Assembly: GCA_963920705.1 (NCBI GenBank)
Contig: CAWUCO010000060.1
Location: 1,178,001-1,242,000, forward strand
Length of the DNA stretch: 64,000 bases
Direction of reading: 5' to 3'
Origin: Odiellus spinosus
Taxonomy: Eukaryota > Arthropoda > Arachnida > Opiliones > Phalangiidae
Part shown: one piece after another, positions 3,001-32,486 of the stretch
How positions within the stretch are numbered: position 1 is the first letter of the stretch
How the letters are laid out: each line of letters begins with the position of its first letter
The notes under the pieces: generated by a model
Told to the model about the DNA's origin: nothing
The model's database searches: none
Seen by the model: only the letters and a program-made list of their open reading frames with translations
Program-made: the position numbers and the translations under genes

Positions 3001-6000
3001 CTTGGGAAATTTGTGGATCTATACTTGGGAAATTTGTGGATCTATACTTGGGAAATTTGTAAATCTATACTTGGGAAATTTGTAAATCTATACTTGGGAA
3101 ATTTGTAAATCTATACTTGGGAAATTTGTAAATCTATACTTGGGAAATTTTTAAATTTATACTTGAGAAATTCGTAAATCTATACTTGGGAAATTTGTAA
3201 ATCTATACTTGGGAAATTTGTAAATCTATACTTGGGAAATTTGTAAATCTATACTTGTGAAATTTGTAAAACTATACCTGGGAAATTTGTGGATCTATAC
3301 TTGGGAAATTTGTGGATCTATACTTTGGAAATTTGTAAATCTATACTTGGGAAATTTGTAAATCTATACTTGGGAAATTTGTAAATCTATACTTTGGAAA
3401 TTTGTAAATCTATACTTGGGAAATTTGTAAATCTATACTTGGGAAATTTGTAAATCTATACTTGGGAAATTTGTAAATCTATACTTGGAAAATTTGTAAA
3501 TCTATACTTATGAAATTTGTGGATCTATACTTGGGAAATTTGTGGATCTATACTTTGGAAATTTTTGGATCTATACTTGGGAAATTTGTGGATCTATACT
3601 TGGGAAATTTGTAAATCTATACTTGGGAAATTTGTAAATCTATACTTGGGAAATTTGTAAATCTATACTTGGGAAATTTGTAAATCTATGCTTGGGAAAT
3701 TTGTAAATCTATACTTGGGAAATTTGTAAATCTATACTTGGGAAATTTGTGGATAAATACTTGGGAAATTTGTTTATAAATACTTGGGGAATTTGTGGAT
3801 AAATACTTGGGAAATTTGTGGATCTATACTTGGGAAATTTGTGGATCTATACTTGGGAAATTTGTGGATCTATACTTGGGAAATTTGTGGATCTATACTT
3901 GGGAAATTTGTGGATCTATACTTTGGAAATTTGTAAATCTATACTTTGGAAATTTGAAAATCTATACTTGGGAAATTTGTAAATCTATACTTGGGAAATT
4001 TGTAAATCTATACTTGGGAAAATTTGTAAATCTATACTTGGAAAATTTGTAAATCTATACTTGGGAAATTTGTAAATCTATACTTTGGAAATTTGTAAAT
4101 CTATACTTGGGAAAATTTGTAAATCTATACTTGGAAAATTTGTAAATCTATACTTGGGAAATTTGTAAATCTATACTTGGGAAATTTGTAAATCTATACT
4201 TGGGAAATTTGTGGATCTATACTTGGGAAATTTGTGGATCTATACTTTGGAAATTTGTAAATCTATACTTGGGAAATTTGTGGATCTATACTTGGGAAAT
4301 TTGTGGATCTATACTTTGGAAATTTGTAAATCTATACTTGGGAAATTTGTAAATCTATACTTGGGAAATTTGTAAATCTATACTTGGGAAATTTGTGGAT
4401 CTATACTTGGGAAATTTGTGGATAAATACTTGGGAAATTTGTTTATAAATACTTGGGGAATTTGTGGATAAATACTTGGGAAATTTGTGGATCTATACTT
4501 GGGAAAATTTGTAAATCTATACTTGGAAAATTTGTAAATCTATACTTGGGAAATTTGTAAATCTATACTTTGGAAATTTGTAAATCTATACTTGGGAAAT
4601 TTGTAAATCTATACTTGGGAAAATTTGTAAATCTATACTTGGGAAAATTTGTAAATCTATACTTGGGAAATTTGTAAATCTATACTTGGGAAATTTGTAA
4701 ATCTATACTTGGGAAATTTGTAAATCTATACTTGGAAAATTTGTAAATCTATACTTGGGAAATTTGTAAATCTATACTTGGGAAATTTGTAAATCTATAC
4801 TTGGGAAATTTGTGGATCTATACTTGGGAAATTTGTGGATCTATACTTTGGAAATTTGTAAATCTATACTTGGGAAATTTGTGGATCTATACTTGGGAAA
4901 TTTGTGGATCTATACTTTGGAAATTTGTAAATCTATACTTGGGAAATTTGTAAATCTATACTTGGGAAATTTGTAAATCTATACTTGGGAAATTTGTGGA
5001 TCTATACTTGGGAAATTTGTGGATAAATACTTGGGAAATTTGTTTATAAATACTTGGGGAATTTGTGGATAAATACTTGGGAAATTTGTGGATCTATACT
5101 TGGGAAATTTGTGGATCTATACTTGGGAAATTTGTTTATCTATACTTTGGAAATTTGTAAATCTATACTTTGGAAATTTGTAAATCTATACTTGGGAAAT
5201 TTGTAAATCTATACTTGGGAAAATTTGTAAATCTATACTTGGAAAATTTGTAAATCTATACTTGGGAAATTTGTAAATCTATACTTTGGAAATTTGTAAA
5301 TCTATACTTGGGAAATTTGTAAATCTATACTTGGGAAAATTTGTAAATCTATACTTGGGAAATTTGTAAATCTATACTTGGGAAATTTGTGGATCTATAC
5401 TTGGGAAATTTGTGGATCTATACTTTGGAAATTTGTAAATCTATACTTGGGAAATTTGTGGATCTATACTTGGGAAATTTGTGGATCTATACTTTGGAAA
5501 TTTGTAAATCTATACTTGGGAAATTTGTAAATCTATACTTGGGAAATTTGTAAATCTATACTTGGGAAATTTGTAAATCTATACTTGGGAAATTTGTGGA
5601 TCTATACTTGGGAAATTTGTAAATCTATACTTGGGAAATTTGTAAATCTATACTTGGGAAATTTGTAAATCTATACTTGGGAAATTTTTAAATTTATACT
5701 TGAAAAATTTGTAAATCTATACTTGGGAAATTTGTGGATCTATACTTGGGAAATTTGTGGATCTATACTTGGGAAATTTGTAAATCTATACTTGGGAAAT
5801 TTGTAAATCTAGACTTGGGAAATTTGTAAATCTATACTTGGGAAATTTGTAAATCTATACTTGGGAAATTTGTAAATCTATACTTGGGAAATTTGTAAAT
5901 CTATACTTGGGAAATTTGTAAATCTATACTTGGGAAATTTGTAAATCTATACTTGGGAAATTTTTAAATTTATACTTGAGAAATTTGTAAATCTATACTT

Positions 6001-18479: not shown

Positions 18480-18485
18480 TTTGTG
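18480..18485. repeat. Left target-site duplication TTTGTG
   Basis: TTTGTG directly precedes the AGTAGTAGG terminus and is repeated directly after the other terminus at 32481-32486. A 6-bp duplication is the hallmark of Polinton/Maverick integration by a retroviral-type integrase (family knowledge). Here it derives from the satellite core. Confidence 0.9.
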
Positions 18486-18492
18486 AGTAGTA

Positions 18493-18523
18493 GGTGAAAG
18501 GAGAGTTCACCCGCAGGAGCGGG
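18493..18523. other. Terminal hairpins, left end
   Basis: Starting 8 nt from the terminus, GGTGAA (18493-18498) pairs with TTCACC (18506-18511). The overlapping CCCGC (18510-18514) then pairs with GCGGG (18519-18523) across a 4-nt AGGA loop. The region is strikingly GC-rich in an AT-rich element. Its position suggests a terminus-recognition site for the replication or integration machinery; this role is inferred. Confidence 0.6.
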
Positions 18524-19478
18524 GGAGCAATATCCGCGCCTATTTAAAAGTGGAATATTTGTAATCTTATCTTTTTTTCTTTTTTATCTTAAGTTGTTAT
18601 CTGGGTTTTTAAGTTTATTTGCTATCTTAATTTTTTATTTTCTATCTTAAGTTGTTATCTGGGCTTTTAAATTAGGATATCTTTTTCCTCTTTCTAAATT
18701 ATTATATATTCATTAACTATTATATTTTTCTTTCTCATAGATAGTTTTAGTTGAATTTACGGTTTTCTAAGGTTTCTGCTCTCCAATTTGATCTCCAATG
18801 ATTTATATACTGCCAGAGGTAGACGGTTTTTCCAAAACGGACAAAATGTTTTTCTCCCGCTTAGAAAGGGGAACTCCGACCCTTTACAATAGATAAGACC
18901 CATTGTAATTGTGGCGTGCGTTCCGACTGTCAGATGTCTTCTTCTTCTCGATATCCCTTGTTCTATGTAGAGCACCATCTAGTGTTTGAAATCGGTAACT
19001 TTCGGCGGAAAAGCAGCCTTAACTATTAGTTTTTCTTTCTCCTAGATAAAAAGCCCTAAATTCAACTAAAAGTACGTTTTCTGCTCTCATATTTGATCTC
19101 TAACGATTTATATCTAGGTTTTCTCTTAAAGTAAAGCCCTTTTACCTAGACCCAGATATGTTCACTATGACTCATATTTACTAATGCTTGTATGTTTAAC
19201 ACTAAGATAAGAGACATTATTTTTGAAAATCAAATATATTTATTTGAAACACAACACCAAACCAGTTACACAATATTAGATATTTCAATTGGAACTATAT
19301 TAAGAAACACTTAAATTAAGACATTAAAAAAATTTGTTAAAACTAGTTTCAATTATCATTGAGGACTATTTTTAACAGAAAAACTCGTTAAATGGAATAT
19401 TATCAATACAATGTCATTCTTGTTATCATGGGTATAAAAGTCCGTATTTACACAACTTTGAGTGGAAAAAACCTTAAA
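18524..19478. other. Left non-coding subterminal region
   Basis: AT-rich DNA between the terminal hairpins and the end of the left polymerase pseudogene. It holds a short direct repeat (TTAAGTTGTTATCTGGG, near 18590 and 18647) and two imperfect copies of a 94-95-bp repeat at 18713-18807 and 19019-19112, mirrored in the right arm. A reading frame for 73 aa (complement 18757-18978) matches no family I know and is 64 aa in the other arm because of a single-base stop; I do not call it a gene. A TATTTAAA at about 18540 could be a TATA-like element. Confidence 0.6.
19239..19244 (-). terminator. Candidate poly(A) signal of the left PolB copy
   Basis: AATAAA on the minus strand, about 235 bp downstream of the original stop codon. 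It is conserved in position with the AATAAA at 31722-31727. The transcript reaching it would be broken by the nested transposon. Confidence 0.4.
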
Positions 19479-19756
19479 CTAATCGACTTCCATCGCGCTT
19501 TCATTAATCTTATAATGTCCATGAGCTAGTGTTGTTATTCCATCCGAAAGTATGTATCTCTTATCATCGGCAGCTGTCATCCCACACTTATTTTGTTGGA
19601 TGGTATATAGATCATGCACTGTAAAAAATAAAGGGTCGGATAAATACCTTTAAAGGTATTTCTGCTTGCCACCCCAGGCGCACCCTTTTAGGTACTTATT
19701 AATACCCTACTTTAGGGGTATTATAAAATACCTTCTATTAAGGGTATTAATGAAGA

Positions 19757-20230
19757 CCTTTGGGGTACTATTTAGCACCATATATGGTATTTTTTCAGAC
19801 TTCAAAAAAATACTATTGGGGTTCGAAAAAAGACCTTTTGGGTCATTAGGGGTACTAATTGGTACCATATATGGTATTTATCCAGACTTCAAAACTTCAC
19901 TTTAGGGGTACGAAATAATACCTTTTCGGCCATTAGAGGTACTAATTGGCACCATATAAGGTATTTATCCAGACTTCAAAACTTCGCTTTAGGGGTACGA
20001 AATAATACCTTTTCGGCCATTAGAGGTACTAATTGGCACCATATAAGGTATTTATCCAGACTTCAAAATTTCGCTTTGGGGTGTGAAAAAATACCTTTTC
20101 GGCCATTAGAGGTACTAATTGGCACCATATAAGGTATTTATCCAGACTTCAAAATTTCGCTTTGGGGTGTGAAAAAATACCTTTTCGGCCATTAGAGGTA
20201 CTAATTGGCACCATATAAGGTATTTTTCGG
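19757..20230 (+). repeat. Subterminal 86-87-bp tandem repeats of the nested transposon
   Basis: Six units start near 19757, 19834, 19921, 20008, 20094 and 20180; spacing is 77, 87, 87, 86 and 86 bp. Each contains a CCTTTT-type start, GGTACTAATTGGCACCATAT, GGTATTT and ATCCAGACTTCAAAA. The last four are very similar; the first two are degenerate. Such arrays near one end are typical transposase-binding subterminal repeats in CACTA-like elements, though binding is inferred. Confidence 0.85.
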
Positions 20231-21196
20231 GAAAATAAAAGATACTTCTTTCATTATTTAAATAGTAGCAAACCTGGAAGATTTATTTGTACAAAATAAT
20301 GGGTTATCATACATCACAATGATTTAAAAATCAAAATAAATCCAGATTTGTATTATGGTTTCATGCATTTGAAAAAGAGGTTTTAACACGAGTTTATGCA
20401 CTTTGAGAAATTGGTTTTTCACGAGGTTACAAGTTTGTTAACTTTAATTTTAGTACAAAGTTATGGGTTGGAAAAGAGGTTTATAACAAGTTTATGATTT
20501 TGGTTTTTAAAAGAAGTTCAGTAGTTTGGAAAAGAAAGCGTTTTATAAGACGTTTATGCATTTGAGAAAGATGGGTTTTATGGATTTTGAGAAATGGAAT
20601 TTTATCACAAATATATGAATATGTTAGTTTTTATCACATTTTTATGAATTTGATTCTATCATCAATAAATTTCAATCAGTCATAAAGCTTTAAATAAATT
20701 TAATCACTTTTATTGGTAAAATTGTGATTAATTTTAATTAAGATTAGGATTAGCTTCATCGATTAGATTTATTCTTGATTATATTTAAATTATAATTATT
20801 AAAATAGAATTAAGCGTTTAAACTGTGTTAATCGATTTTATCATAATTAAATTAAACTTCTTCATCATTGTTCGATTGTCACGTGAACTAAAATATTCTG
20901 TTTAAAATTCTGTTCGCCAAAGCATTTTCTATCGCTGGCAGCCAGTGTCAGTTATAATTTCAAACCAGTGGCGTTATTTTTTCGTTGTGATTTTCAGTCA
21001 ACACTTTCTACCCCATCCTCCCTTTGCGGTAAGCCTGATAAAGAAAAATTCTTCACTCCACTGCTCTGTATAATACAACAACGGTTGTTAAAAGCCTCCT
21101 CCATTCGATCCTTGCTTTTACATGTCGGAACCACAGGTCGGTTCTTGCCCTGCAGTTGGATTAGACCAACACTTCTGTTCTGCCATTAATAGACTC
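20231..21196. other. Left-central part of nested transposon, no gene seen
   Basis: This is AT-rich DNA (20231-20900) with degenerate repeats of the form GAAAAGAGGTTT...AAGTTTATG, followed by a less AT-rich stretch. The latter contains AACGGTTGTTAAAAGCCTCCTCCAT (split here by position: 21081-21105), with a diverged copy near 21324-21350. No coding region is recognised. Confidence 0.5.
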
Positions 21197-21202
21197 ATGT
21201 GT

Positions 21203-21275
21203 AGGCCTTGGTAGCTCAGTTGGTTAGAGTGTGGGGCAATTACTGAACCACCCTGAGGTGTGTCTTATGTTGTCA
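21203..21275 (+). other. tRNA-like 5' half with perfect A box (possible SINE head)
   Basis: GGCCTTGGTAGCTCAGTTGG followed by TTAGAGTG resembles the D-arm half of a tRNA. TAGCTCAGTTGG at 21212-21223 fits the Pol III A-box consensus TRGCNNAGYNGG. No T-arm or B box (GGTTCRANNCC) follows within about 100 bp and the anticodon arm cannot be folded convincingly, so this is not a functional tRNA gene. It may be the head of a tRNA-derived SINE, or a tRNA fragment captured by the transposon. Confidence 0.5.
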
Positions 21276-22204
21276 TCTCAGGATACCTGTTTATCCACTT
21301 AAATCATGTTTAAACCGTACCTAATGGTTGTTAAAAACCTTCTCCATACCATGTTATTCTATCTTTTAGGACAGTGATCGGCAGAATAAACTTTCCCTTT
21401 TCTGTTATATCAGAATCACATTCAGTTTGTTCCTGAAAAAATAAGAGTCCTTCACTCCTTCTTCAAGTTGAAATAACTAGCAAAGGCTTAAGCTTGATAG
21501 GATTATGCTAAGCAGCTAACATACTCGTGAAGGAATTATTGCATATGTTTCCCACTTGAAACTTGAAATTTGGAAAATCATGAAGATTTATAACATATAT
21601 AAATTAATAGATATGCCTACCTTTCAATCTGCGTTTCAGCAACCTTCGATTTCAAAGAGTTAAATACAAGTTAAGTGTGCGCCTAAATTTATGGCTCGGT
21701 CGCGTCGCGTCTCTACTATGAAGAGAACAGAGAGAATACTTAAACGAAGGAGGTGAAAGAGACTGCCCGTTTTCCCGTTCTAACGCGCTTACCGCTTATT
21801 GTGCGCTAGGTACGCTTCCACTCGTTTGTTACTCACTCAGAGATAGATATCACCTCCGCCAAAAAGTGACGCGGCACCAAGCGTTATTCTCTCGTCAAGG
21901 TTGCTACAGATAATTCGCTGGGTTCTAGTCTCCCGAGCGTTAACATTTGAATCACCAAAAATACAATTTAAACCTTGCGGCGCTTGTTTTAGTTTACCTT
22001 CTATTAATGACATTAGATATTTTACTTTTTTCCAATTAAGATCCCAATAAAACATTAATATCAACAATATGTATAATAAGACTTACAATGATTTTGGAAT
22101 AAAATCTCCAGCGTAGTTTTCATTTCGCGGGGCTTTCCGATTGTTAAGCCTAATTTGACAAAAGTAGGCTTAGGAAAGTAATTTCACGAGCTTGGTTCGA
22201 TAAT
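21276..22204. other. Right-central part of nested transposon, no gene seen
   Basis: Around 21690-21840 the sequence is unusually rich in CpG for this window (CGGTCGCGTCGCGTC and following), unlike the surrounding AT-rich DNA. This may be a captured host promoter or exon fragment. The 76-aa frame on the minus strand (21837-22067) has no recognisable motif. I assign no function. Confidence 0.4.
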
Positions 22205-22419
22205 ACCTTTTGGGGTTTTAAAAAAGACCTTCTTTACTCATAAAATACCCTTCGGAAGTCGAAAATACCCTAATGGTATTGAAAAGAACCCTTAAAAATT
22301 CTTAGGGTTTGTTTTAGCGCCATCGGTAGTACTAATAAATACCTTAAGGTGTTTTTCCATTAAAAGTACCTTTTAAGGCGTTTAAAACGACCCCAAAAAT
22401 ACCTTCATTTTTTACAGTG
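22205..22419 (-). repeat. Right subterminal motif cluster of the nested transposon
   Basis: Repeated ATACC(C/T)TT and GGTATT motifs occur in both orientations up to the right TIR, matching the motif type in the left 86-bp units but not arranged as a regular array. The left polymerase fragment reads into this sequence and acquires about 25 unrelated codons. Confidence 0.7.
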
Positions 22420-25400
22420 TGGTTATAACTCTGGATTTTTGTCATTTCCACTCTCTTAATTTCCTTCTTAAAAAGGCAGTCCCGATAGTTCTTGTGGTTT
22501 AAAGCATGTTTTACCACACTCTTACTCACACCCTTTGCCCGCTTAGACTCCACGCCTCCTTTAGCGTACGAATACAGTTTCGGTCTTAAGGCCACGAGTT
22601 CTGAGATAGGTTCACCGAAACTCATCTTTCATTTTGCCAAGTTTCTTCTTATTAACCTCACTGTGAAGGAAATGGGTCTTGGGCATATCTGAAGTGTCAT
22701 AATGGTAATAATGAAGCAGCATATCTTTGTAGATATCATCCGTCTCAATGCAATAGGTTAAAGAGTCGGTGTCCGTTAATAGCAGCTTAGCTTTATCACC
22801 ATACTGCATTCTTATTTGGTTGTAGTGAAAGTCATACATGAGGTACTTGCTTAGTTCGAGAATGCAAAAACCAACATATATAGGTCGGTTGAGGAGTAGC
22901 TTTTTCCGATAGCTACTAACAGCAACTAGATCTTCATTGAACACATTCACAGACTTGAATGATGGAGAGGCCGCAACCTTGGTGAGGCGCTTTTCGGTAT
23001 GAATAAGTTCCACATTCGATCGAATCCTCAAATTCTCCATCGTCTTGCCAAACACACTATTATTCATCAACTTGAAAAACGACTTTTCAAACTCATTATT
23101 TGCCAATTTTCTTTGTTCGGTATTGAAGTCGATGTATAACTTCATCCATGGAGATTGACTAAATTCGATCACTTGATGGATTTTGGTTAGTCGTATTCCT
23201 AAAGCTACATAGAGTTGAAGGTTGCGGTAATGTATGACGTAATCTGACTTGTCATTCAAATTGGGCAATAGTTTTTTGATATTAGGAGAGTGTTTCAGAC
23301 CTAATGTTTTTAACAACTCCGTAGAGTAAGGTGAAAGCATATCTTCAGTAATATTGACATTTTCAGGAGCTAATGGATAATCGCTATGACTGTCATGTAA
23401 AGAGGGAGGATACTCTAAATCTACTTTTAAAATGTAACCCTTAGCAGACTGTGAATCAACTTTTAAAAAATCAAGGCAGCTAATTTCTTCATCACTCAAC
23501 CAACGAAACCCACCAGTTGGCATGGGTTGGGACATTGCCCAACCGTAGAGATTATTAGCGTCATAATACATAATATATGTCTTAGGATCTGTGGGGTTAT
23601 AATCCTCTAAATAAGGGTTATTTGCCTTGGCATATCGATGAGATATCATCGAGATACCCCCACGAATCCCTTCTTCGCATAACAAATGCATATCAATATC
23701 GGTAAAAAGTTCGAGTTCAACATTCGACTTCTTAAGACAAGCCTGCCAAGCGAGACCGGGAGAAGTTAGAAAATATCCACCAGGATCCAATTCATAATGT
23801 TTCCTACATACATCCCTAAAATTCTCAAAAACATCAGCTAACAATAAAACGTCCGTTTTATTATATAATTCCTGATACGCCCCAAGATTTTCAATTTCGA
23901 AGCTTTCCCAAATTGACTTGGCAAAGTCATAATCATCTTGAGGGAGAGGTTCACTAGTAAGACTATTATGAAAAGCCTCTATAGGTGGTAGAGATGTTTC
24001 TAAAAACCCATCTTCACAATCTATATAATCATTAGGAAATACTCCTTTCCTGGTTAACATAGGGACCTTATCCAGAGGAATGCAAGAAGATAGAAGCTTA
24101 AAGTTCTGCAAGCCTGCTTTTGATAAATTATTCACAAGACTGTCTAAGGAACTAGACATAAACTGAAATGAATCAATAAATTTATACCCACCTATGGTGA
24201 ACGAGACATATTTCTCAACATTATTTGCAATGCATAACAACTTTCTATCTTTATACTTCCCAACGCTCGACATTAAAATGTGACTATTATAATTTCTTAA
24301 ATTGTGAAATACAACAGGGATGGTTTTGGAGGCTTTGAAATTTAAATTGCAAACGTTACAGGCAGGACCACGATATATACCAGTCATATGATCATGGTCC
24401 CTTACCTTATTTGTCAAATCATTCTTACAAATATGACACATAGTTGCATGTCTAAAGCTCTCCTCCTCCTCTTCAGATATAATCATAGGTTTGTTGATCC
24501 CAACCCTGCCTAAAAGTTCGGCCTCTATCTCCATTAAAGAGTCGAGAAACCTTTCGGAAGCATCACTCCCCCTATAGTTAACTGGTCCCTTATAAAGATC
24601 TCCATTGTAGTCAACAACGATATAACAGAAGCCTGAAGGGATATGTTTTCCAATTTTAGTAGTGGAGGGGATGTTAGGATTCGGTTTGCAAACAGATATT
24701 TTTGGAATCATGCATTCAAAATCTGCGTATATAATATAGGGAGTTTTAAAGGAATATCGATGGCCCTCAAATTTCAGTACATTCTCGCCAACTAAAGGCA
24801 ATGCAATTTTTTGAGCTGCATGTGCATTGCAGTTAATTGAATGCTGTTTAAGAATATCTCCATTACTAAATCTATGTAGACATCTTCTACAATAGAACTT
24901 CTTGCCATTATGCTTGGTTAATGATCCAAGTAGACGACTCAAACTTCTAATTGAGCAATAATGCTTTTGAAAACCATCAGATATAAGAAGCAAATCCACT
25001 TCCCTATCCTCTGTCACAATTTTCTCACTTACGAATAGTGGAATCACCTCACTATCTTCATATCCAAAAACATTAATTGACAAATTGTTCAACTCCTCAA
25101 ATCTAGAAACTTGAGAGATCTCCATCGGGAAGGAAAACCCTTTAACGTGAAGTTCATTCAGGAAAGGCTCATAGCTCGAAACACGATCGCTATCCTTCAC
25201 TATTTCTTTATGTAGAGAAGCTAGAATACTATAGATAAAACAACGAGAATCCTTGTTTTGAACATTAACAATTGCTTTCTTAGCCTTTAGAACGCTGGGT
25301 AGATCCACATAGCTAGACCCATACAGAGGAGTATACATCAAGATGTTTAAATCTAACCTTTCTATGGTGTCAACCACCCAACCACTCCCCATATGAATGA

Positions 25401-25889
25401 AATTACTACATAGATTTAAAATTTGAGCAAAAGATCGGTCTAACTTAAGATTAACACTATCTTTAGAAGTCAGAGTTACCCGACAAAACCCGTGAAAAAT
25501 CGAAGTAGTATATCTATCCCCACAAATATCTGAATCCATGGCTCGTATAAACCTAACAACTACGGCCACATACCATTTAACGGCCCTCTTACCTTCCTCC
25601 ATAACTCTCAAAATTTCACATCTAAGTTTTGGCTTAACTAGTTGAAAAAATTTGCTAAGATCGACAAATTCACCCTTTGGACGAAATTTATAGCAACCAA
25701 CCCGTCTATTAATGGCACTGACATTATCAAATAGTTCACATACATCTTCCAACTCACTACCTTCATCATACTTTACGTCAACCTCCGAATCTATATCTAA
25801 ACTACAACTACCGCAATTATGCGAATCCAAATCAAATTGGGTATCAAAATGCTTCGAGCATTGACTACAAACATGTTTAACGATCACAC

Positions 25890-25954
25890 CTAGAGAGAAA
25901 TAAATGATATAAGCCATCAACTGATTAGAATATTTAAATATTTGAGATACATAC
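25890..25954 (-). other. Intron of left PolB copy (65 bp)
   Basis: Mirror of the right-arm intron, with GTATGT donor, CTAAT branch-like motif and CTCTCTAG acceptor all preserved despite gene inactivation downstream. Confidence 0.8.
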
Positions 25955-26126
25955 CTAATAATCCTTCGTGCGAAATTCTATGCTTCTTCAAATTAGAAAG
26001 TCGTAAAAACGACTTGCTACAAATCTCGCATTTAAAAGCGGGTTTTTCACCATGTTGCTCCTTTTCGTGACGTTTCAGATTTTTCCGCTGTGAGAATGTT
26101 CTATCACAGTTAGTGCATGAAAACAT

Positions 26127-26610
26127 TATAAAATTAACGCAATAGTCAGAGACTTGGAATTTAGATGACTTTACTCTTCAAAGATCTGGCGTAGAATGAA
26201 TTTAAATGCAGCATCATCGATAGATATACCAAGATATAAGGAGGGTGTACTATGAACTGTGATATCAGTTTATCATGTTGACTTAGACAATAAGACAAAA
26301 TACATGTACGAATCGGGAGATTAAAATCGAGATGACTTCACTCTTCAAAGATCAGGCAAACAATAAATTTAAATGTGGACCGTCGCTAGACATACACCGA
26401 GATAACCAGGACTATATGATAAAATGAATTTACGAGTCAATACTTAAAGCAATCCGAATTTAAATACTAGATCGTTTAGGGAAAAACATCAGTCTTATCT
26501 TATCGATGTTGAAAATTTCAAATACTGCAATAACGGGGAAAATCCTATTTCGTCATTGTAAGTATGGAAAAACCCAATTCATGATGTCTTTATCACTAAA
26601 CTTAAACCAA
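26127..26610 (-). promoter_or_regulatory. Upstream region of left PolB with duplicated motif
   Basis: These 484 bp between the exon 1 ATG and the central hairpin mirror 27159-27642. They contain two imperfect direct copies of a block centred on AGATGACTT(T/C)ACTCTTCAAAGATC, 167 bp apart (from about 26163 and 26330). They presumably carry the left half of a divergent promoter, or an origin-associated repeat; neither can be shown here. Confidence 0.45.
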
Positions 26611-26799
26611 AGATATCTATTATCTATAAACAAGATAAAAAGGGCAATTCAAATTAATTTAAAAAAAGGGGGAAGGAGGGGGTCGTCCCTTTGCTCGCCA
26701 AGGCGAGCATCAAAAAGGTGCGGACGACCCCCTCCTTCCCCTTTTTTTTAAATTAATTTGGATTGCCCTTTTTATCTTGTTTATAGATAATAGATATCT
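26611..26799. repeat. Central 78-bp-stem hairpin at the axis of the palindrome
   Basis: Arms 26611-26688 and 26722-26799 are inverse complements with two mismatches over 78 bp. The 33-nt loop contains its own perfect palindrome GCTCGCC-AA-GGCGAGC (26693-26708). The G-rich/C-rich inner part (GGGGGAAGGAGGGGGTCGTCC, within 26668-26688) is far more GC-rich than its surroundings. The symmetry centre of the whole 14-kb element lies in this hairpin. As single strand or cruciform it would be very stable, so it could act as a snap-back priming site, a closed end or an origin. Confidence 0.93.
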
Positions 26800-27158
26800 C
26801 TTATCAGAGGTTTTTTCAAGTGTTTATCTACGATTAAGATAAGACAGGCTGCAAAGTGTCGAGAAATGAGCTTATCTGTGAATTTCTCCTCTCTTTTTAT
26901 CCTAATATTTGATATTTTCCTGGAAAAACCACCTCTTTGGTTTAAGTTTAGCGAATTGGGGTTTTCCCCTTTATTTGCGGGATTCCCCTGTTTATCTTGT
27001 TTGTAGATAAGAGATATCTCTTGTCGGAGGTTTTTTAATGTGTTTATCCTAAATATAGCGATCCTTAGGTTCTAGTTCCATTGTGCAATGTCGACTCGGG
27101 TTTTACCACAAGTTCAATCATACCGTTTTCGCAATATTTACTCGGAAAAACCACCTCT
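26800..27158. other. 359-bp right-arm-specific segment with internal tandem duplication
   Basis: This segment has no counterpart in the left arm. It begins and ends next to TCT (26797-26799 and 27156-27158), and the left arm keeps a single TCT (as AGA at 26611-26613), as expected of a 3-bp microhomology deletion on the left. Imperfect direct repeats lie 220-222 bp apart: TTTATCTTGTTT...GATATCTCTT at 26771 and 26991, and GGAAAAACCACCTCTTTGG at 26922 and 27144. No gene is seen. Confidence 0.8.
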
Positions 27159-27642
27159 TTGGTTTAAGTTTAGTGATAAAGACATCATGAATTGGGTTTT
27201 TCCATACTTACAATGACGAAATAGGATTTTCCCCGTTATTGCAGTATTTGAAATTTTCAACATCGATAAGATAAGACTGATATTTTTCCCTAAACGATCT
27301 AGTATTTAAATTCGGATTGCTTTAAGTATTGACTCGTAAATTCATTTTATCATATAGTCCTGGTTATCTCGGTGTATGTCTAGCGACGGTCCACATTTAA
27401 ATTTATTGTTTGCCTGATCTTTGAAGAGTGAAGTCATCTCGATTTTATTCTCCCGATTCGTACATGTATTTTGTCTTATTGTCTAAGTCAACATGATAGA
27501 CTGATATCACAGTTCATAGTACACCCTCCTTATATCTTGGTATATCTATCGATGATGCTGCATTTAAATTCATTCTACGCCAGATCTTTGAAGAGTAAAG
27601 TCATCTAAATTCCAAGTCTCTGACTATTGCGTTAATTTTATA
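27159..27642 (+). promoter_or_regulatory. Upstream region of right PolB with duplicated motif
   Basis: GATCTTTGAAGAGT(G/A)AAGTC at 27416 and 27583 are direct repeats 167 bp apart. Each is preceded by a related stretch with CATTTAAATT, so blocks of about 85 bp are duplicated. The second copy ends about 35 bp before the ATG of exon 1. Promoter function is inferred from position only. Confidence 0.45.
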
Positions 27643-30600
27643 ATGTTTTCATGCACTAACTGTGATAGAACATTCTCACAGCGGAAAAATCTGAAACGTC
27701 ACGAAAAGGAGCAACATGGTGAAAAACCCGCTTTTAAATGCGAGATTTGTAGCAAGTCGTTTTTACGACTTTCTAATTTGAAGAAGCATAGAATTTCGCA
27801 CGAAGGATTATTAGGTATGTATCTCAAATATTTAAATATTCTAATCAGTTGATGGCTTATATCATTTATTTCTCTCTAGGTGTAATCGTTAAACATGTTT
27901 GTAGTCAATGCTCGAAGCATTTCGATACCCAATTTGATTTGGATTCGCATAATTGCGGTAGTTGTAGTTTAGATATAGATTCGGAGGTTGACGTAAAGTA
28001 TGATGAAGGTAGTGAGTTGGAAGATGTATGTGAACTATTTGATAATGTCAGTGCCATTAATGGACGGGTTGGTTGCTATAAATTTCGTCCAAAGGGTGAA
28101 TTTGTCGATCTTAGCAAATTTTTTCAACTAGTTAAGCCAAAACTTAGATGTGAAATTTTGAGAGTTATGGAGGAAGGTAAGAGGGCCGTTAAATGGTATG
28201 TGGCCGTAGTTGTTAGGTTTATACGAGCCATGGATTCAGATATTTGTGGGGATAGATATACTACTTCGATTTTTCACGGGTTTTGTCGGGTAACTCTGAC
28301 TTCTAAAGATAGTGTTAATCTTAAGTTAGACCGATCTTTTGCTCAAATTTTAAATCTATGTAGTAATTTCATTCATATGGGGAGTGGTTGGGTGGTTGAC
28401 ACCATAGAAAGGTTAGATTTAAACATCTTGATGTATACTCCTCTGTATGGGTCTAGCTATGTGGATCTACCCAGCGTTCTAAAGGCTAAGAAAGCAATTG
28501 TTAATGTTCAAAACAAGGATTCTCGTTGTTTTATCTATAGTATTCTAGCTTCTCTACATAAAGAAATAGTGAAGGATAGCGATCGTGTTTCGAGCTATGA
28601 GCCTTTCCTGAATGAACTTCACGTTAAAGGGTTTTCCTTCCCGATGGAGATCTCTCAAGTTTCTAGATTTGAGGAGTTGAACAATTTGTCAATTAATGTT
28701 TTTGGATATGAAGATAGTGAGGTGATTCCACTATTCGTAAGTGAGAAAATTGTGACAGAGGATAGGGAAGTGGATTTGCTTCTTATATCTGATGGTTTTC
28801 AAAAGCATTATTGCTCAATTAGAAGTTTGAGTCGTCTACTTGGATCATTAACCAAGCATAATGGCAAGAAGTTCTATTGTAGAAGATGTCTACATAGATT
28901 TAGTAATGGAGATATTCTTAAACAGCATTCAATTAACTGCAATGCACATGCAGCTCAAAAAATTGCATTGCCTTTAGTTGGCGAGAATGTACTGAAATTT
29001 GAGGGCCATCGATATTCCTTTAAAACTCCCTATATTATATACGCAGATTTTGAATGCATGATTCCAAAAATATCTGTTTGCAAACCGAATCCTAACATCC
29101 CCTCCACTACTAAAATTGGAAAACATATCCCTTCAGGCTTCTGTTATATCGTTGTTGACTACAATGGAGATCTTTATAAGGGACCAGTTAACTATAGGGG
29201 GAGTGATGCTTCCGAAAGGTTTCTCGACTCTTTAATGGAGATAGAGGCCGAACTTTTAGGCAGGGTTGGGATCAACAAACCTATGATTATATCTGAAGAG
29301 GAGGAGGAGAGCTTTAGACATGCAACTATGTGTCATATTTGTAAGAATGATTTGACAAATAAGGTAAGGGACCATGATCATATGACTGGTATATATCGTG
29401 GTCCTGCCTGTAACGTTTGCAATTTAAATTTCAAAGCCTCCAAAACCATCCCTGTTGTATTTCACAATTTAAGAAATTATAATAGTCACATTTTAATGTC
29501 GAGCGTTGGGAAGTATAAAGATAGAAAGTTGTTATGCATTGCAAATAATGTTGAGAAATATGTCTCGTTCACCATAGGTGGGTATAAATTTATTGATTCA
29601 TTTCAGTTTATGTCTAGTTCCTTAGACAGTCTTGTGAATAATTTATCAAAAGCAGGCTTGCAGAACTTTAAGCTTCTATCTTCTTGCATTCCTCTGGATA
29701 AGGTCCCTATGTTAACCAGGAAAGGAGTATTTCCTTATGATTATATAGATTGTGAAGATAGGTTTTTAGAAACATCTCTACCACCTATAGAGGCTTTTCA
29801 TAATAGTCTTACTAGTGAACCTCTCCCTCAAGATGATTATGACTTTGCCAAGTCAATTTGGGAAAGCTTCGAAATTGAAAATCTTGGGGCGTATCAGGAA
29901 TTATATAATAAAACGGACGTTTTATTGTTAGCTGATGTTTTTGAGAATTTTAGGGATGTATGTAGGAAACATTATGAATTGGATCCTGGTGGATATTTTC
30001 TAACTTCTCCCGGTCTCGCTTGGCAGGCTTGTCTTAAGAAGTCGAATGTTGAACTCGAACTTTTTACCGATATTGATATGCATTTGTTATGCGAAGAAGG
30101 GATTCGTGGGGGTATCTCGATGATATCTCATCGATATGCCAAGGCAAATAACCCTTATTTAGAGGATTATAACCCCACAGATCCTAAGACATATATTATG
30201 TATTATGACGCTAATAATCTCTACGGTTGGGCAATGTCCCAACCCATGCCAACTGGTGGGTTTCGTTGGTTGAGTGATGAAGAAATTAGCTGCCTTGATT
30301 TTTTAAAAGTTGATTCACAGTCTGCTAAGGGTTACATTTTAAAAGTAGATTTAGAGTATCCTCCCTCTTTACATGACAGTCATAGCGATTATCCATTAGC
30401 TCCTGAAAATGTCAATATTACTGAAGATATGCTTTCACCTTACTCTACGGAGTTGTTAAAAACATTAGGTCTGAAACACTCTCCTAATATCAAAAAACTA
30501 TTGCCCAATTTGAATGACAAGTCAGATTACGTCATACATTATCGCAACCTTCAACTCTATGTAGCTTTAGGAATACGACTAACCAAAATCCATCAAGTGA

Positions 30601-31487
30601 TCGAATTTAGTCAATCTCCATGGATGAAGTCATGCATCGACTTCAATACCGAACAAAGAAAATTGGCAAATAATGAGTTTGAAAAGTCGTTTTTCAAGTT
30701 GATGAATAATAGTGTGTTTGGCAAGACGATGGAGAATTTGAGGATTCGATCGAATGTGGAACTTATTCATACCGAAAAGCGCCTCACCAAGGTTGCGGCC
30801 TCTCCATCATTCAAGTCTGTGAATGTGTTCAATGAAGATCTAGTTGCCGTTAGTAGCTATCGGAAAAAGCTACTCCTCAACCGACCTATATATGTTGGTT
30901 TTTGCATTCTCGAACTAAGCAAGTACCTCATGTATGACTTTCACTACAACCAAATAAGAGTGCAGTATGGTGATAAAGCTAAGCTGCTATTAACGGACAC
31001 CGACTCTTTAACCTATTGCATTGAGACGGATGATATCTACAAAGATATGCTGCTTCATTCTCACCATTATGACACTTCAGATATGCCCAAGACCCATTTC
31101 CTTCACAGTGAGGTTAATAAGAAGAAACTTGGCAAACTGAAAGATGAGAGTTTCGGTGAACCTATCTCAGAACTCGTGGCCTTAAGACCGAAACTGTATT
31201 CGTACGCTAAAGGAGGCGTGGAGTCTAAGCGGGCAAAGGGTGTGAGTAAGAGTGTGGTAAAACATGCTTTAAACCACAAGAACTATCGGGACTGCCTTTT
31301 TAAGAAGGAAATTAAGAGAGTGGAAATGACAAAAATCCAGAGTTATAACCATGATCTATATACCATCCAACAAAATAAGTGTGGGATGACAGCTGCCGAT
31401 GATAAGAGATACATACTTTCGGATGGAATAACAACACTAGCTCATGGACATTATAAGATTAATGAAAGCGCGATGGATGTCGATTAG
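27643..31487 (+). CDS. POLB: Protein-primed-type family B DNA polymerase, intact, two exons
   Basis: Exon 1 is 27643-27814 and exon 2 is 27880-31487; splicing keeps frame and gives about 1,259 aa. It would replicate the linear element, probably in the nucleus. Residues in the spliced product: C2H2 fingers at C4/C7/H20/H25 and C33/C36/H49/H53; a C2HC finger at 65-83; another finger at 391-411; Exo I D447xE449; an endonuclease VII-like zinc module (C542, C545, DHDH 555-558, C568, C571); Exo II region N587..Y591-N592, with Asn instead of Asp; Exo III Y733xxxD737; an IRGG motif at 799-802; polymerase motif A D834; motif B K997...NSVFG; motif C DTD 1097-1099; KxY at 1162-1164. The set matches Polinton PolBs. 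A block near 265-285 (DSRCFIYSILASLH) is typical of their N-termini; a papain/OTU-like fold there is only a guess. Further upstream exons cannot be excluded. Confidence 0.92.
27815..27879 (+). other. Intron of right PolB gene (65 bp)
   Basis: The donor is TTAG|GTATGT, a branch-like TTCTAATCAG lies 40 nt before the end, and the acceptor is a pyrimidine tract ending CTCTCTAG|GTG. Removal joins the zinc-finger exon to the polymerase exon through a split Gly codon with no stop. Without splicing the finger frame ends at 27852 and the polymerase frame would have to start at an unsupported ATG inside the intron (27849). Confidence 0.85.
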
Positions 31488-32442
31488 TTTAAGGTTTTTT
31501 CCACTCAAAGTTGTGTAAATACGGACTTTTATTCCCATGATAACAAGAATGACATTGTATTGATAATATTCCATTTAACGAGTTTTTCTGTTAAAAATAG
31601 TCCTCAATGATAATTGAAACTAGTTTTAACAAATTTTTTTAATGTCTTAATTTAAGTGTTTCTTAATATAGTTCCAATTGAAATATCTAATATTGTGTAA
31701 CTGGTTTGGTGTTGTGTTTCAAATAAATATACTTGATTTTCAAAAATAATGTCTCTTATCTTAGTGTTAAACATACAAGCATTAGTAAATATGAGTCATA
31801 GTGAACATATCTGGGTCTAGGTAAAAGGGCTTTACTTTAAGAGAAAACCTAGATATAAATCGTTAGAGATCAAATATGAGAGCAGAAAACGTAGTTTTAG
31901 TTGAATTTAGGGCTTTTTATCTAGGAGAAAGAAAAACTAATAGTTAAGGCTGCTTTTCCGCCGAAAGTTACCGATTTCAAACACTAGATGGTGCTCTACA
32001 TAGAACAAGGGATATCGAGAAGAAGAAGACATCTGACAGTCGGAACGCACGCCACAATTACAATGGGTCTTATCTATTGTAAAGGGTCGGAGTTCCCCTT
32101 TCTAAGCGGGAGAAAAACATTTTGTCCGTTTTGGAAAAACCGTCTACCTCTGGCAGTATATAAATCATTGGAGATCAAATAGGAGAGCAGAAACCTTAGA
32201 AAACCGTAAATTCAACTAAAACTATCTATGAGAAAGAAAAATATAATAGTTAATGAATATATAATAATTTAGAAAGAGGAAAAAGATATCCAAATTTAAA
32301 AGCCCAGATAACAACTTAAGATAGAAAATAAAAAATTAAGATAGCAAATAAACTTAAAAACCCAGATAACAACTTAAGATAAAAAAGAAAAAAAGATAAG
32401 ATTACAAATATTCCACTTTTAAATAGGCGCGGATATTGCTCC
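31488..32442. other. Right non-coding subterminal region
   Basis: Mirror of 18524-19478. It contains two imperfect direct repeats at 31854-31947 and 32159-32253 (offset about 305 bp) in which a 17-bp core (31893-31909) is exactly inverted in the second unit (32207-32223). The direct repeat ACCCAGATAACAACTTAAGAT / GCCCAGATAAC... lies near 32303 and 32359. A 64-aa frame (31988-32182) is not recognisable as a gene. Confidence 0.6.
31722..31727 (+). terminator. Candidate poly(A) signal of right PolB
   Basis: AATAAA lies 235 bp after the stop codon, in AT-rich DNA and with a T-rich stretch following. It is the only AATAAA I noticed in the immediate 3' region and is conserved in the left arm. Confidence 0.5.
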
Positions 32443-32473
32443 CCCGCTCCTGCGGGTGAACTCTCCTTTCACC
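32443..32473. other. Terminal hairpins, right end
   Basis: Exact inverse of 18493-18523: CCCGC/GCGGG and GGTGAA/TTCACC stems, ending 7 nt before the terminus CTACTACT. Confidence 0.6.
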
Positions 32474-32480
32474 TACTACT

Positions 32481-32486
32481 TTTGTG
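32481..32486. repeat. Right target-site duplication TTTGTG
   Basis: Second copy of the 6-bp duplication, directly after the CT terminus at 32480 and continuing into GGATCTATACTTTGG of the satellite. Confidence 0.9.

Follow-up and report, generated by a model that had tools for sequence, protein, structure and literature searches.

Fully palindromic one-gene transposons, probably derived from Polintons, in the genome of Odiellus spinosus

Results

A palindromic element inserted in satellite DNA

The window analyzed here is a stretch of 64,000 nucleotides from the harvestman Odiellus spinosus (assembly GCA_963920705.1, contig CAWUCO010000060.1, positions 1,178,001 to 1,242,000). A single element occupies positions 18486–32480 and the remainder is a 23-bp satellite (unit ATACTTGGGAAATTTGTAAATCT), which flanks it on either side. 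The element is an inverted duplication from end to end: two arms, each with one family B DNA polymerase gene (PolB), meet at a central hairpin and are enclosed by a 6-bp target-site duplication (TSD; Table 1). The two arms differ by 22 substitutions plus indels. A preliminary description of the locus had recognized the inverted duplication and its TSD, both of which hold; its arm length of about 5.4 kb has to be corrected, as the arms of sister copies measure 5,767–5,775 nt and the left arm is short by ∼356 nt near the center. The 542-nt ‘spacer’ between the aligned arms stems from this inequality.

The satellite runs in one direction throughout (540 forward and 0 reverse units in the left flank, 977 and 0 in the right), which speaks against an artefact (missed adapter or read palindrome) that extends beyond the element. 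Removal of the element together with one TTTGTG restores an unbroken satellite, that is, the empty site. The window element is a real palindromic insertion.

Table 1. Features of the palindromic element (copy C72), in positions of the window
Feature	Position	Strand	Remarks
Left TSD	18480..18485	.	TTTGTG
Whole palindromic element	18486..32480	.	ends AGTAGTAGGTGAAAGG...CCTTTCACCTACTACT
Left arm	18486..26704	+	contains the nested insert; ∼356 nt by the center missing
Nested DNA insert	19617..22419	.	ends CACTGTAAAAAA...TTTTTTACAGTG (CACTG..CAGTG); TSD TG
Left-arm PolB frame	22612..25920	-	frameshift near 22620 from a 2-nt difference
Central hairpin	26611..26799	.	78-bp arms and 33-nt loop
Right arm	26705..32480	-	5,776 nt
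Probable first exon	27643..27814	+	C2H2 zinc fingers (by eye); mirror copy within 25917–26177 of the left arm
Putative intron	27815–27879		65 nt; splice sites by inspection
Right-arm PolB frame	27849..31487	+	1,212 amino acids, open; Endonuclease_7-like stretch at residues 492–527
Right TSD	32481..32486	.	TTTGTG
Inverted arm pair, inner	22621–26613/27156–31148		3,993 nt, 99.57% identity (BLAST)
Inverted arm pair, outer	18486–19616/31350–32480		1,131 nt, 99.47% identity (BLAST)

A family of head-to-head palindromes

The window lies within a 443-Mb assembly of 286 contigs; all evidence presented here comes from the assembled sequence of this one genome, and counts from genome searches are lower bounds. 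A search with the window PolB returned at least 46 matches (38 of 656 candidates scored), which group into 18 places: 14 head-to-head palindromes, one tail-to-tail palindrome, and three places not shown to be palindromic (C2:2.28 Mb, C3 and C5:2.26 Mb, of which C2 alone was inspected). The head-to-head copies, at least 14 on 12 contigs, carry their genes as divergent pairs and form three subfamilies. PolB is ∼99% identical to that of the window in subfamily A (C72 itself, C1, C4, C11, C5:4.98 Mb (C5a) and C137), 88% in subfamily B (C5:9.44 Mb (C5b), C14, C7, C5:3.53 Mb (C5c), C12:17.4 Mb, C274 and C17) and 81–82% in the third, represented by a single copy at C8:2.84 Mb.

Both ends were read in every head-to-head copy. 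All 14 have an exact 6-bp TSD, every one different, and all 14 have AGTAGT..ACTACT tips that start at the same base. Polintons (Mavericks) have a 5′-AG terminus; here AGTAGTAGGT is present in 14 of 14 copies. The first 16 bases read AGTAGTAGGTGAAAGG in 13 copies and AGTAGTAGGTAATAGG in C8. Flanks of 300 bp show no match between copies (BLASTN, 1e-5, low-complexity filter on; for C137, 84 bases of the right flank only) except between C72 and C8, the latter being inserted in the same 23-bp satellite as the window element. The whole palindrome is inserted as one piece and flanked by 6-bp TSDs, as the preliminary description had proposed, and further palindromic copies with TSDs of their own are plentiful.

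Element length is 11,543–11,550 bp in four copies of subfamily A and 11,717–11,728 bp in six of subfamily B; C17, analyzed at its ends, spans 16,315 bp. C1, C4, C11 and C5a are symmetric down to a loop of ∼40 nt (C137, rearranged close to the center, is left out), so that in the measured symmetric copies the inverted repeat is the entire element bar this loop, and no unique gene region stands between the terminal inverted repeats (TIRs). When the 215-base end was used as query, 42 matches were obtained, with 28 of 28 candidates scored. Palindromes of A and B account for all of them but two: a solo fragment at C8:5501783, which comprises the outermost 1,297 nt of one arm, and a partial match at C137:503762. 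This search missed the diverged end of the C8 palindrome itself.

Each arm runs from the terminus through ∼1 kb without a recognized gene to the PolB gene and then to half of the short central loop. Identity between A and B arms is high in PolB and the zinc-finger exon and 0.3–0.5 across most other parts, rising to 0.71 at arm positions 5601–5700 of 5,775. By eye the loop and center sequences of A and B appear homologous (the C8 center being outside the comparison), and we therefore place the origin of the palindrome before A and B diverged.

Coding content of the arms

A and B arms have PolB and its C2H2 exon as their only conserved frames. In agreement with the preliminary description, no rve integrase, ATPase, protease or capsid gene was recognized in them. 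Apart from PolB and the zinc-finger exon, the longest frame of an A arm has 64 amino acids with a start codon, which leaves no room for a hexon gene.

The polymerase was assigned by structure. At E≤0.01 it has no match to PF03175 in Pfam, where Endonuclease_7 (PF02945, residues 492–527) was the sole report. The AlphaFold model of residues 301–1212 has a pLDDT (predicted local distance difference test) of 92.6; its nine top matches in the PDB are all phi29 polymerase, at 11–13% identity (best E 2.1e-17), and the first family B chain other than phi29 follows at E 4.7e-9. PolB is thus predicted, by fold only, to be phi29-like; the model is compatible with the protein-primed type named in the preliminary description, while the expected Pfam family was not matched. 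The Endonuclease_7-like domain inside the polymerase, which is also listed in many relatives of the window PolB, could act on branched DNA or hairpins. For Adintovirus PolB an OTU-like domain is placed at the N-terminus (PMC11071296). C227 and H320 of the window PolB are invariant in a 23-sequence alignment and would fit a cysteine-histidine pair.

PolB is free of stops across the aligned range in 21 of 28 arms, the 21 having been chosen for a full-length match, and the remaining seven matches are short, split or stop-containing; both arms are open in 9 of 14 copies. The ratio of nonsynonymous to synonymous substitution rates (dN/dS) was 0.11 for the comparison of A with B (dS 0.50), 0.094 for A with C8 (dS 1.06) and 0.09 for B with C8, which indicates that PolB is under purifying selection between subfamilies.

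Arms of one copy resemble each other

In subfamily A the number of substitutions between the two arms is 0 in C1 and C11, 1 in C4, 3 in C5a and 22 in C72, different A copies being up to 26 substitutions apart. At 14 informative sites the arms disagree in no A copy (one site is gapped in the left arm of C72). Private changes common to both arms number four in C5a, five in C72 and one in C11; those confined to a single arm number 22 in C72, three in C5a and one in C4. Of the substitutions private to the C8 copy, 474 are common to its two arms and 27 are confined to one; its one-arm differences number 35 over 4,029 sites. All 10 A arms and all 12 B arms measured are fixed for different bases at 482 columns.

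Subfamily B presents a mixed picture. C5b and C14 (both arms) and C274 (the one arm measured) are free of differences. Columns 945, 1680 and 3146 are changed in one arm of C5c but in both arms of C12:17.4 Mb, and at columns 5712 and 5742, near the center, arm-specific differences are split alike in these two copies. Read in this way, subfamily B appears to show arm equalization half done.

In the tree, arms of the same copy pair for C8 (support 1.00), C72 (0.956), C5a (0.948) and C7 (0.788); those of C11 pair as identical sequences, those of C5c and of C12:17.4 Mb do not pair, and those of C1, C4, C5b, C14 and C274 are too similar for pairing to be judged. In the alignments most lineage-level substitutions are present in both arms of an insertion, and the arms of one copy evolve largely in concert. 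Such concerted arms imply that the palindrome moved as a unit with its arms mostly equalized ahead of insertion; the equalization is placed mainly before insertion because the diverged copies retain one-arm differences, contrary to what steady conversion within the chromosome would produce.

Other fold-back elements and co-resident Polintons

The tail-to-tail palindrome, at C12:8005092-8019209, is 14,118 bp long, with TSD TGTATC and ends AGTAGATATAAAAGG. Its PolB genes (42–55% identity) point to the center, with the frame in pieces; the matches contain stops, reflecting introns or decay. Here the other side of the gene was retained as the end of the element.

A second fold-back element is a Polinton at C2:11039930-11053024 with inverted repeats of 3,399 bp (99.94%) and TSD GATCAT. 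It has frames for PolB, BIR and dUTPase (Pfam) and an A32-type ATPase slightly under the Pfam cut-off; among the matches listed (129 of 1,228 candidates scored) there is no integrase match at this element. A longer Polinton on C22 is 99.4% identical to it over 1,254 columns, ending exactly where the C2 inverted repeat begins. Past this junction the C22 Polinton, as far as it was read, carries protease-like and capsid-like frames (by eye) and an integrase (C22:368147). In the C2 element the part with protease, integrase and capsid-like frames has given way to a second, inverted copy of the left end, and the fold-back junction lies exactly where the enlarged TIR ends on its inner side. The tail-to-tail element and this half-way Polinton together argue that fold-back has happened repeatedly in the genome. 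An inverted duplication of a PF03175-type PolB at C4:1735200-1743400 (arms ∼3.5 kb, 99%, with an ATPase-like frame at the center) was not counted as a palindromic element, its ends not being reached.

The genome is rich in Polinton-type genes, with at least 161 matches to PF03175 (77 of 571 candidates scored; often two per gene). With a Polinton-type integrase as query, at least 129 matches were scored elsewhere in the genome, at 22–32% identity and many of them open; some, in frames of 1,226–1,725 codons, may belong to retrotransposons. In five of five C22-type copies checked (C22, C84, C6, C8:4.83 Mb and C7:10.44 Mb) the left end begins AGTAGTAAAGTACGC, and in all five of these AGTAGT-tipped copies an integrase match lies 5–6 kb from the PolB match.

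The one inspected of the three places not shown to be palindromic, C2:2278531-2282121, holds a single PolB relative (74%) in an open frame of 1,320 codons. As a parent of the family it was rejected, the stretch examined having no AGTAGTAGGTGAAAGG-like end (≤4 mismatches). By eye no Polinton-type gene was recognized in 6 kb on one side, the other side being read to 1.5 kb. It is possible that this is a host-kept gene.

Relatives elsewhere and comparison with known systems

A scan of viral contigs with a single PolB query gave no match; an alignment scan found PolB relatives on two of them, L045 (41%) and L046 (38%), the former of which also encodes an rve integrase and an A32-type ATPase. Judged from gene layout, virion genes are likely present, although the two frames tested gave no Pfam match. 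These relatives link the family to Adintoviruses and Polinton-like viruses; in contrast to the palindromes, the viral stretches hold one PolB, and their inverted repeats do not exceed 46 bp. Eleven metagenome-assembled contigs also carry PolB relatives, at 29–49%. They are short, and the longest inverted repeats on them are one of 76 bp (L049) and an imperfect one of ∼70 bp (L054). Because the viral and metagenomic contigs are short, the absence of palindromes there says little of other species.

With Polintons the palindromes share the predicted phi29-like PolB fold, AG..CT ends and the 6-bp TSD, and their AGTAGT tip recurs at Polinton left ends in the same genome. They differ in being palindromes without recognized integrase, ATPase, protease or capsid, the whole gene set lying inside the inverted repeat. 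Polintons are usually defined by PolB, an rve integrase and TIRs, and rve integrases typically leave 6-bp TSDs (PMC12220804); having no integrase that we found, the palindrome is not a Polinton by the definition given there. Closer in form are the snap-back genomes of adeno-associated virus (AAV), in which one genome half is doubled self-complementarily and which replicate with helper functions (PMC8235507). The palindromes, too, have one half symmetrically doubled and a single end type. The AAV forms, however, are subgenomes in a virus population with another type of replication (PMC8235507), whereas the palindromes are dispersed insertions with a conserved gene and diverged subfamilies. Teratorn is likewise a large mobile element with long inverted repeats (PMC6431247), but it is a piggyBac/herpesvirus fusion with unrelated enzymes. 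In the open-licence PMC literature, a scope that excludes Repbase and subscription papers, we found no palindromic Polinton described.

Discussion

The data make it probable that these copies belong to one family of Polinton-derived transposons that are palindromic throughout and carry a single gene, two inverted copies of ∼5.8 kb making up each element. They are best read as snap-back derivatives of Polintons that have turned into lasting transposons. Such a derivative could have arisen during protein-primed strand-displacement synthesis, if either the polymerase or the strand it displaced had doubled back where the central hairpin lies; synthesis would then have re-copied one half, and the other genes would have been lost. 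To multiply, PolB would initiate at the identical ends and the displaced, self-complementary strand would fold into a full-length hairpin, in which mismatches between arms may be repaired, unless synthesis itself switches arms. The rve integrase of AGTAGT-tipped Polintons would then join the linear duplex palindrome to the chromosome. We infer that the integrase acts in trans, since none was recognized in the arms and integrase-bearing Polintons with AGTAGT tips are present. This was also the proposal of the preliminary description, with which our data are consistent without proving it; integrase-bearing relatives of the kind it envisaged exist in the genome, though none was found with the window-type PolB or the exact ends. 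The snap-back origin that it suggested gains from the half-way Polinton on C2, with its junction at the inner end of the enlarged TIR, and is still an interpretation.

Other accounts of the palindromes differ widely in plausibility. Nearly identical arms and satellite flanks, a usual setting of misassembly, could point to a single chromosomal inverted duplication or an assembly artefact at the window locus; with 14 copies on 12 contigs that have their own TSDs and end at the same base, and with no inversion of the satellite across the element, this can be set aside almost entirely. A more serious, if still unlikely, alternative is that the palindrome formed once and was inherited passively, the likeness of its arms being due to gene conversion within the chromosome. 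The arms of Y-chromosome palindromes are kept alike by gene conversion. Such conversion would likewise give substitutions common to both arms, and the apparent homology of the A and B centers fits a single formation. However, steady chromosomal conversion should have removed the one-arm differences that the most diverged copies, C72 and C8, retain; conversion in a master copy is left as a possible variant.

Instead of being copied as such, palindromes might be built up from a half-element intermediate every time an insertion occurs, which would suit the substitutions common to both arms and the identical arms in C5b, C14 and C274. This seems improbable, as the asymmetric loop shows that two distinct arms were transposed together, and C5c and C12:17.4 Mb have arm-specific differences in common at columns 5712 and 5742. 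More doubtful again is an autonomous element whose PolB itself integrates through the Endonuclease_7-like domain. The PF02945 match and the lack of another recognized conserved gene in the arms speak for it, but the same domain is listed for many PolB relatives, the tail-to-tail and fold-back elements have TSDs of equal length, and 6 bp is the TSD length typical of rve integrases (PMC12220804).

Several observations count against a Polinton-derived family with arms equalized before insertion. The PolB and end searches, whose counts are lower bounds, found no Polinton with a window-type PolB or exact ends, which leaves the family without its direct parent. Just the first six end bases are common to the palindromes and the integrase-bearing Polintons, so that mobilization by the latter is weakly supported, and only five (AGTAG) are common to the head-to-head family and the tail-to-tail element. 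Within subfamilies dN/dS is higher, at 0.26–0.52, from just 5–10 substitutions. C72 has as many differences between its own arms (22) as between them and C1 (22 and 18). In subfamily B, disagreement between arms affects 5 of 20 informative sites in C5c and 2 of 20 in C12:17.4 Mb, so that equalization is incomplete. Gene conversion in a master copy, moreover, might equally yield equal arms.

Whether the palindromes amount to a distinct class of self-synthesizing transposon we regard as an even question. In that reading the unit of heredity would be the half-element, a polymerase gene between a replication and integration end and a hairpin center; the arms would correct each other in a full-length hairpin each cycle, so that the palindrome is actively maintained; and such elements would form repeatedly from Polintons by fold-back synthesis and spread via a borrowed integrase. 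The ‘distinct class’ of the preliminary description was stronger than the evidence, which supports a Polinton-type variant formed at least twice in the genome.

The family suggests that a transposon which replicates itself can fold back and duplicate one of its halves without losing mobility. It would record, in nature and repeatedly, how fold-back synthesis, a process described in the defective genomes of viruses such as AAV, gives rise to stable new transposons, and how replication is separated from integration in Polinton-type elements. It opens testable questions about the ends that the integrase requires and about the hairpin as replicon. Elements of this form can escape surveys that start from capsid genes (PMC10120064) or that require an insert of 6–80 kb between TIRs (PMC12220804). 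Concerted arms may also serve as a built-in clock, in which shared changes mark the lineage and one-arm changes the time since insertion.

A nested insertion in the left arm

The left arm of the window element is interrupted by a nested insertion of 2,803 bp (Table 1). From its ends we take it to be CACTA/EnSpm-like, and it contains an array of 87-bp repeats.

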